Shown here: positions 44,692 to 47,242 of the stretch, one piece after another
Position numbering within the stretch: position 1 is the stretch's first letter
Layout of the letters: every line of letters begins with the position of its first letter
Origin: Oscillospiraceae bacterium
Lineage (GTDB): Bacteria > Bacillota > Clostridia > UMGS1810
Direction of reading: 5' to 3'
Assembly (NCBI GenBank): GCA_015068825.1
Contig: SVJU01000004.1
Span: forward strand, 1 to 64,000
DNA: 64,000 bases
Notes under the pieces: model-generated
What the model saw: only the letters and a program-made list of their open reading frames with translations
Databases searched by the model: none
What the model was told of the DNA's origin: nothing
Translations under genes and position numbers: made by a program

Positions 44692-45009
44692 TCACCTTTT
44701 GATAAGCTTTAATATTTCTTTAAGACTAAAACACTCGTCACCATTTATAAAAGCTATCTCCCACTCTGTGTCAGAATATTTTAATATTTCCTCATATTCC
44801 TCGTAAGTAACATCTATGGCTTTTTTCTTATAGTATCTCTTCTCTTTACTATCCCACTCTGTATAAGGGTATGTATCATATATTCCTTCGGGTGCATATA
44901 CCTTTTCGAATAATCCAAGTCTTATAAGTGTTTCATCTTTTTCTTTGTAAAACGCCGCAATTCTTTCTTCTTTTTTTGCCTTAATATACGCTAAAGCCTT
45001 ATCATGCAT
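44692..45009 (-). CDS. Hypothetical protein, 105 residues, behind a structured leader
   Basis: Not recognised. MHDKALAYIKAKKEERIAAF begins a charged, largely helical protein, with YPYTEWDSKEKRYYKKKAID and DVTYEEYEEILKYSDTEWEI; no signal peptide or membrane helix with this start. The ATG at 45009 lies 7 nt after GGGGGA. Reading could also begin at 45063, adding MCFLCIALAMHFFIGGIY, but there the AAGGAG is only 2 nt from the ATG and the extra codons run through a terminator hairpin. A strong sigma-A promoter and a long folded leader precede it. Confidence 0.65.
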   Translation of the reverse strand: MHDKALAYIKAKKEERIAAFYKEKDETLIRLGLFEKVYAPEGIYDTYPYTEWDSKEKRYYKKKAIDVTYEEYEEILKYSDTEWEIAFINGDECFSLKEILKLIKR

Positions 45010-45017
45010 ATAAATTC

Positions 45018-45193
45018 CCCCAATAAAAAAGTGCATAGCCAAAGCTATGCACAAAAAACACATAGCTCCTTTTTGTCGCCAAACAAATCACACATAACCC
45101 ACAAAAGTATATGCAAAACAGAGCATATGTATTTTTATCATATACAAAAATACACATACTTATGTGAGTTTAAATTATTAAGATTTGTTTGGC
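45018..45193 (-). promoter_or_regulatory. Candidate riboswitch-like or attenuator leader
   Basis: Transcript start is expected at about 45193. The first 12 nt, GCCAAACAAATC, pair perfectly with GATTTGTTTGGC ending at 45078. Inside are CACATAA/TTATGTG, AGTATGTG with CATATACT, and a hairpin GTATTTTT/AAAAATAC, plus a 15-nt and a 7-nt bulge. After the closed domain come AGCTATG (45067-45061), which can pair with CATAGCT (45049-45043), and the terminator, which needs the same CATAGCT strand. No known riboswitch class was recognised. A palindromic mobile element is the main alternative. The upstream remainder of the gap shows only the promoter. Confidence 0.55.
45025..45052 (-). terminator. Intrinsic terminator in the leader
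   Basis: GTGCATAGC-TTTG-GCTATGCAC, a perfect 9-bp stem with a 4-nt loop, followed by six T on the minus strand, then directly the ribosome binding site of the 105-residue gene. The plus strand has no U-run, so it works only in this direction. Confidence 0.85.
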
Positions 45194-45199
45194 ATTAGT

Positions 45200-45229
45200 A
45201 GTATATCATACACAATTTAGTCGTGTCAA
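45200..45229 (-). promoter_or_regulatory. Sigma-A promoter for the structured leader
   Basis: Minus strand TTGACA at 45224-45229, 18-nt spacer ending ATGA, TATACT at 45200-45205. The expected start, six or seven bases on, coincides with the first base of the closing stem. Confidence 0.75.
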
Positions 45230-45599: not shown

Positions 45600-45773
45600 A
45601 TGAAAAAATTTAAAATTCCAAGTGTTCCACCAACAACAAATAAATGCATCAGATTCCCTAACGACATTATCGACGAAGTCGAAAACAAAATAAAGGGAAA
45701 GCCTTGTACCTTCTCTGCGTTTGTAATTGAAGCTGTAAAGGTTGCATTAGATAATTTAAACGAAGAAAAATAA
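45600..45773 (+). CDS. Ribbon-helix-helix small protein
   Basis: 57 residues: MKKFKIPSVPPTTNKCIRFP starts it; the beta strand NKCIRFP and the two helices NDIIDEVENKIKG and TFSAFVIEAVKVALDNL fit the Arc/CopG/MetJ fold, which binds DNA as a dimer through the strand. GGAGG lies 6 nt before the ATG. The stop codon is fused to the start of a palindromic repeat. Likely an autoregulated repressor acting on the repeats upstream; small proteins of this type are common in Clostridia (from memory). Confidence 0.8.
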   Translation: MKKFKIPSVPPTTNKCIRFPNDIIDEVENKIKGKPCTFSAFVIEAVKVALDNLNEEK

Positions 45774-45900
45774 AGGCTCCCTTGTGTAAAGGGAGCTGTC
45801 GAACGCAAGTGAGACTGAGGGATTGCTTTAAAATGCTATCTACATTACAATCCTCCCGTCAGCCTACGGCTGCCACCCTCCTTTACACAAGGAGGGCTTT
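45772..45900. repeat. Palindromic intergenic repeat element (about 129 bp)
   Basis: Left end AAAGGCTCCCTTGTGTAAAG, right end CTTTACACAAGGAGGGCTTT: inverted copies, with inner arms CTGAGGGATTG and CAATCCTCCCGTCAG. Each end also folds alone (CTCCCTTGTGTAAAGGGAG). The element begins within the RHH stop codon and ends 33 nt before the rplL terminator. Same design as 270-400. Confidence 0.75.
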
Positions 45901-47084: not shown

Positions 47085-47211
47085 TTTGTGACAAACAATA
47101 AAGGTTTCTCACAAAGACATAATGCGAGAAACCTTATTAATAAACATTATTAATGTAAGTCCTCGGCAGGATATTTAAGCAAAAAGCACCTGCTGTCTTT
47201 GGATACCTTAT
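47085..47211 (-). promoter_or_regulatory. Ribosomal protein L10 leader
   Basis: The minus strand reads AAAGACAGCAGGTGC ... ATATCCTGCCGAGGACTT, the conserved core of the L10 leader upstream of rplJL. It is followed by AAGGTTTCTC/GAGAAACCTT at 47101-47135 and a U-rich stretch, a possible attenuator. Excess L10(L12)4 binds such leaders and reduces rplJL expression. Confidence 0.88.
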
Positions 47212-47213
47212 AT

Positions 47214-47242
47214 TTTATACCATAGTTTGAAACTTTTGTCAA
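47214..47242 (-). promoter_or_regulatory. Sigma-A promoter of rplJL
   Basis: Minus strand TTGACA at 47237-47242, 17-nt spacer, TATAAA at 47214-47219, placing the transcript start at the head of the L10 leader. Confidence 0.85.

Follow-up and report, generated by a model that had tools for sequence, protein, structure and literature searches.

In the window, the 64,000-nt stretch of Oscillospiraceae contig SVJU01000004.1 (assembly GCA_015068825.1) analyzed here, a structured leader occupies positions 45229-45010 of the minus strand and precedes a gene for a 105-aa orphan protein (44692..45009, same strand). The leader had been predicted from the sequence to be an unrecognized transcriptional riboswitch or attenuator, and all elements of that description were located. 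A -35 box TTGACA (45224..45229) is separated by 18 nt from a -10 box TATACT (45200..45205), which lies 6 nt upstream of stem P1, whose first base is the predicted transcript start. P1 is the perfect 12-bp stem of the original prediction; its 5' strand GCCAAACAAATC (45182..45193) is matched, closing 104 nt on, by GATTTGTTTGGC (45089-45078), and both strands are supported by covariation in the family described below. Nested within P1 are a conserved AAUA at the asymmetric P1/P2 junction (45176..45179, assigned from motif counts in the family), stem P2 with a 5' strand in two stacked parts (45153..45170) and a 3' strand at 45096..45113 (from the fold and family covariation), and stem P3. The 5' strand of P3, UAUUUUU (strand A, 45146..45152), pairs with the P3 portion of strand B (45120..45136), which consists of the P3 3' strand and a GCUCU toehold and has A and C as alternative partners. 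A conserved linker GACAA (45073..45077; RRCAA in the family, from the conservation line and motif counts) leads to strand C, GGAGCTATGTGTTTTTT (45053..45069), which is complementary to both B and the following strand D. Strands D, GTGCATAGC (45044..45052), and E, GCTATGCAC (45031..45039), are the arms of a terminator followed by six T (45025..45030), and a ribosome site GGGGGA lies 3' of the T-run, before the ATG at 45009. The AGCTATG noticed earlier (45067-45061) lies within C and can pair with CATAGCT of the terminator 5' arm. The window leader folds far better than its shuffles (z = -6.9; 0 of 200 shuffles equally good), and a scan of it with the Rfam 15 covariance models matched no family, in agreement with its description as unrecognized. 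The sole Rfam match in the window is a ribosomal protein L10 leader (RF00557) at 47088-47220 on the minus strand.

The window leader is one member of a large RNA family that is missing from Rfam 15. A DNA search of the host genome revealed four further places with 70-85% identity, and a covariance model derived from five copies recovered eight good copies there, seven of them besides that of the window. The search for homologous leaders by covariance, proposed together with the original prediction as a check, thus found them. In a first survey with this type of model, the element was present in 24 genomes among 60 relatives. Using a second model built from 34 members, we found at least one match at E <= 1e-6 in 78 of the 291 genomes sampled from the class, many of them with at least 9 copies each, and a search of 13 genomes with a looser filter gave up to 13 copies per genome; the sampled genomes were partly incomplete. 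The hosts named in one exact-pattern scan were Oscillospiraceae and other Clostridia MAGs. Among 398 genomes from across the phylum, including a few of the host's own class, the host genome alone gave a match, and the element was absent from all of the approximately 380 genomes sampled in the other classes. The phylum-wide scan is a good control against chance matches in AT-rich DNA, and the family therefore appears, as sampled, to be limited to the class of the host. Within the class, no copy was found in G001, the one further genome sampled from the genus of the host, so that gain and loss of the element must occur.

Comparison of the Rfam 15 families with the window leader and roughly 45 further member loci gave no match at or near the curated cut-offs. 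We did not find a description of the element in the literature; subscription papers and the survey of 224 motifs (Weinberg 2017) lay outside this search, and an earlier description outside Rfam cannot be excluded. The main text of a 50-genome survey mentions none of the regulon terms searched for. Pipelines that take GC-rich intergenic regions as their starting point would be prone to overlook such an AU-rich element. Matches of approximately 200-220 nt (L171-L210) were considered as possible T-box-like artefacts, and this was rejected on reading them: they constitute a genuine longer subtype (about 205-220 nt), in which the inner domain differs while the promoter, P1, and the terminator are kept. 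Tandem elements, approximately 210-315 bp apart and each with its own promoter, were observed at L148 (three copies), L026, L017, L040, L050, L069, L077, L080, L085, L102, and L114.

The helices P1, P2, P3, and the terminator are conserved by compensatory change. In a first set of 66 aligned members, 96.2% of the pair cells hold standard pairs, 34 of 40 pairs have changed on both sides, and the covariation score reaches 0.58, compared with 0.21 for shuffles. A second set, of 66 distinct members collected after model building and sharing a few with the first, gave 96.5%, 30 of 40, and 0.57 against 0.21, respectively. Both alignments were fitted to the structure of the model, and the counts lean toward it; slid registers of the same alignments, with just 31-57% of cells paired, show the margin that remains. 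The relatedness of members within a genome also inflates the shuffle statistics. P1 is paired in 95.5-96.6% of cells, with 11-12 of 13 pairs changed on both sides, and the terminator helix D:E in 99.3-99.8%. A single case is a distant homologue of the 105-aa protein in G092, from another family, that has the same leader with GCTACGTATCT/AGATGCGTAGC in place of GCCAAACAAATC/GATTTGTTTGGC in P1, rewritten and compensated. Several unpaired positions are conserved as well: AAUA behind the P1 5' strand in 116 of 151 members (40 expected), the RRCAA linker behind P1 in 140 of 151 when a loose pattern is used, and the GCUCU that separates P3 from P2.

A feature that the original prediction did not include is the locking of the promoter to P1. 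The -10 box is close to P1 in 121 of 128 members, with a gap of 6 or 7 nt in 116, and a -35 box with at most two mismatches stands 15-19 nt from it in 111 of 128 (10.7 in shuffles), the spacer being 17 nt in 103 of the 128 members examined. The family promoter is of the sigma-A type. The fixed gap means that transcription should start at or beside the first base of P1, and thus that the 5' end of the RNA lies inside the stem, which supports the start site proposed for the window leader.

Dispersed copies with 70-85% identity in one genome, the tandem arrangements, and the patchy distribution exemplified by G001 would also be expected of a mobile, MITE-like palindrome that carries a hairpin in front of genes by chance. 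The original prediction had named the palindrome at unrelated loci with target-site duplications, or a loss of stem pairing in homologous leaders, as the observations that would refute it. Copies at unrelated loci do exist; however, target-site duplications were found in none of 128 members and the pairing is conserved, so this refutation is not met. Rewriting of the stems with compensation, the constant promoter distance, and the presence of a gene with a ribosome site behind the terminator also do not fit such a palindrome, and phage and plasmid records gave no match, though only DNA similarity or one exact pattern was used for them. We thus reject the transposable palindrome as highly improbable, principally because duplications are lacking and the stems are compensated.

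Two further helices, B:C and C:D, are not part of the structure of the covariance models. B:C, also beyond the original prediction, is a 15-bp pairing of the P3 3' strand and GCUCU with the segment behind P1. It is paired in 94.3% of cells in the first set and 93.1% in the second, compared with no more than 68% in any slid register. When partners were swapped between members, the own C was better than the mean of the others' C in 109 of 123 members (p = 9e-20), and the A:B helix favored its own partner in 108 of 123. Most members of the longer subtype have a contiguous B:C complement of 15-16 bp (mean z -4.3, 40 loci). In the five-T/five-A section of B:C the pairs hardly vary, and covariation therefore backs only part of this helix in the short subtype. 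C:D, in which the segment behind P1 pairs with the terminator 5' arm, is the competing antiterminator proposed originally, and it is conserved across the family, with 87% and 86% of cells paired in the two sets and the own pair better in 97 of 123 members (p = 1e-12). Covariation of C:D in the second set is modest, as four pairs have changed on both sides, no more than in shuffles. In the first set, one base of C (column 205), left as a bulge when C pairs with B, covaries with the terminator arm, and this provides independent support for C:D.

Folding energies fit a balanced switch, within the limits of a model that cannot score the pseudoknot B:C. Over the family, C:D is predicted in 95% of RNAs ending at D, and the full-length RNAs are almost evenly divided, with D:E at 58% and C:D at 41%. 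For the window leader, the predicted probability of D:E is 0.99 at full length, and that of C:D is 0.85 in the version cut at D.

Taken together, the leader is likely to be a cis-acting, multi-strand transcription attenuator of a new Clostridia family in which B and D compete for C, a reading drawn from sequence without transcript, termination, or binding data. Comparison of members establishes, at that level, that the promoter is locked to P1 and that the four helices exist, are conserved, and exclude one another. What is inferred is that the helices exchange cotranscriptionally, which way the response runs, and that its signal is a diffusible ligand bound by the RNA. The RNA is predicted to begin at the first base of P1 and to comprise a sensor domain (P1, the asymmetric AAUA junction, P2, and P3, formed by A:B), a linker, the switch strand C, and the arms D and E. 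C would be the deciding strand. When free, it would pair with D as an antiterminator, the terminator would be blocked, and the gene would be on. Alternatively, B may capture C, either via the GCUCU toehold with displacement of A or as a pseudoknot with P1/P2; D would then pair with E, transcription would stop, and the gene would be off. A signal acting on the sensor domain would set the availability of B. The structural and positional features of an attenuator, namely a promoter, mutually exclusive antiterminator and terminator, and a gene behind them, are all present, and the original prediction of a transcriptional riboswitch or attenuator passed every computational test named with it, the covariance search and the compensatory changes included. 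That the RNA is a riboswitch in the strict sense, binding a ligand directly, is still unproven.

The chain of mutually exclusive helices ending in an antiterminator or a terminator resembles the trp-type scheme, and ribosome-mediated attenuation through a leader peptide was considered. A candidate leader ORF, with a ribosome site and start codon 5' of C, is found in only 17 of 151 members, and P1 at position +1 leaves scant room for one; with so few candidates this mechanism is rejected as very unlikely. Unlike trp-type attenuators, the element has no leader peptide, has a large conserved sensor domain, and precedes many unrelated genes. T-box leaders of Firmicutes likewise combine a leader of approximately 170-220 nt with a choice between antiterminator and terminator; however, the genes regulated here are not related to aminoacylation, and no Rfam T-box match was obtained in the window or the scanned member loci, by which T-box identity is rejected.

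Most members of the family have a ribosome site and an ORF behind the terminator, and the gene families recur. Among 82 downstream proteins, 22 match BspA-type LRR_5, eight have a Cu-amine-oxidase N-terminal domain, and six are AbrB/MazE-type regulators; others contain RCC1, SLH, CHAP, GDSL, LytTR, or TerB domains. A hydrophobic N-terminal segment is present in about half of the downstream proteins, and 32 proteins are no longer than 110 aa. The element is thus predicted, in the absence of expression data, to control BspA-type surface proteins, Cu-amine-oxidase-N proteins, AbrB regulators, and many orphan small proteins; in gut Clostridia, a genome often has ten or more copies, placed behind a promoter and in front of genes that encode surface proteins or very small proteins of unknown function, where they would stop or permit transcription. 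For a link of the downstream genes to anti-phage defence, only marginal matches were obtained. The 105-aa protein of the window is a short, distant relative of proteins of 167-209 aa whose C-terminal part is hydrophobic and membrane-like. No such leader precedes the other homologues examined, among them the host-genome paralogue G000:C16, in contrast to that of G092, and the leader is therefore not an obligate partner of this gene. A Cys-rich orphan family with the pattern IDVTGIxLTPGNxGKDCxGNG...CCCDEC was observed behind the element in several genera (L008, L011, L013, L042, L054, L064, L105, L117, and L172-L177); those of its members that were tested singly had no Pfam or NCBIfam match.

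For the sensor step of the attenuator, our first choice is a ligand bound by the RNA, at about even chances, and the second is a protein. A small molecule is the most likely input signal but is unproven. In a strict riboswitch, given the same even chance, P1-P2-P3, the AAUA junction, the RRCAA linker, and the GCUCU pseudoknot would bind a metabolite or signalling nucleotide and free B or C. The conserved unpaired AAUA, RRCAA, and GCUCU support this, as do a possible pseudoknot geometry, the tandem copies known from signalling riboswitches, and a set of controlled genes that, as for second messengers, encodes unrelated surface proteins and regulators. However, the core of conserved unpaired nucleotides is limited in size and rich in A and U, and the genes suggest no ligand, since no enzyme or transporter of a single pathway recurs. 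The many copies per genome with unrelated genes would suit one trans-acting protein, an antiterminator or RNA chaperone, which might recognize AU-rich unpaired stretches such as GCUCUAUUUU. We regard this protein sensor as unlikely: no partner gene was identified, and P1 to P3 are bigger, and show more covariation, than the antiterminator hairpins known to be bound by proteins.

Signalling riboswitches with transcription terminators, such as c-di-GMP-I and -II in Clostridia, often occur many times per genome. The present family resembles them in its many copies, its unrelated genes including those for surface proteins, its tandem copies, and a sensor domain followed by a conditional terminator. 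It differs in matching no Rfam riboswitch, in its AU-richness, in the fixed +1 on P1, and in the existence of element-rich genomes without GGDEF. A GGDEF search at E <= 1e-8 found none in the element-bearing G004, G005, G006, and G007, and G004, G005, and G007 carry many elements. With no Rfam c-di-GMP-I/II match either, c-di-GMP is disfavored as the ligand. The orphan riboswitch candidates of intergenic-region surveys are, as here, structured leaders with covarying helices and an unknown ligand (PMC8632094, PMC11109978, PMC2864571).

The RNA family library thus lacks a switch that is present in about a quarter of the genomes sampled from a dominant gut class, frequently in many copies each. 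The family offers a handle on the control of BspA-type surface proteins and dozens of orphan small genes in largely uncultured bacteria, and it defines a regulon whose signal can be sought. The strict coupling of promoter and P1, together with the exact B:C and C:D pairings, yields mutants that can be tested immediately.

About a third of the copies have no gene directly behind them, and some of these may act otherwise. Motif F, a 12-nt reverse complement of the family's P1'-RRCAA located 15-57 nt behind the terminator, occurs in 20 of 43 gene-less copies and in one of 76 gene-bearing copies, with an additional low-quality match at L055 left uncounted; the loci include L006, L016, L018, L027-L029, L039, L040, L087, L104, L110, L112, and L121. 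It is usually followed by a second terminator, between convergent genes. This enrichment would suit a terminated RNA of approximately 170 nt that acts in trans as a small RNA, the gene-less copies with motif F being dedicated producers or antisense regulators of their siblings, and so would the perfect pairing of the L028 motif over 18 nt with its sibling L144 and of the L006 motif over 17 nt with the window element. Across all copies with motif F, however, complementarity averages 9.6 nt to siblings against 9.0 nt to elements of other genomes, and the combined test was not significant. An antisense action on siblings thus rests on striking single cases with a failed overall test, and we find the small-RNA reading decidedly improbable. 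A broader version of the attenuator preferred here is speculative and, in our estimate, unlikely to hold in full: a new class of signalling riboswitch whose ligand may be a second messenger not yet described in gut Clostridia, with a position at +1 of its own promoter, a five-strand exchange, a regulon of surface proteins and orphan peptides at 10 or more loci per genome, and gene-less copies that would feed back in trans through antisense read-through RNAs.

An inverted repeat, AAAGGCTCCCTTGTGTAAAGGGAGCTGTCGAACGCAAGTGAGACTGAGGGATTG, was also observed at window positions 45770-45900 and upstream of the elements L002 and L003; it is a separate dispersed repeat of the host genome.
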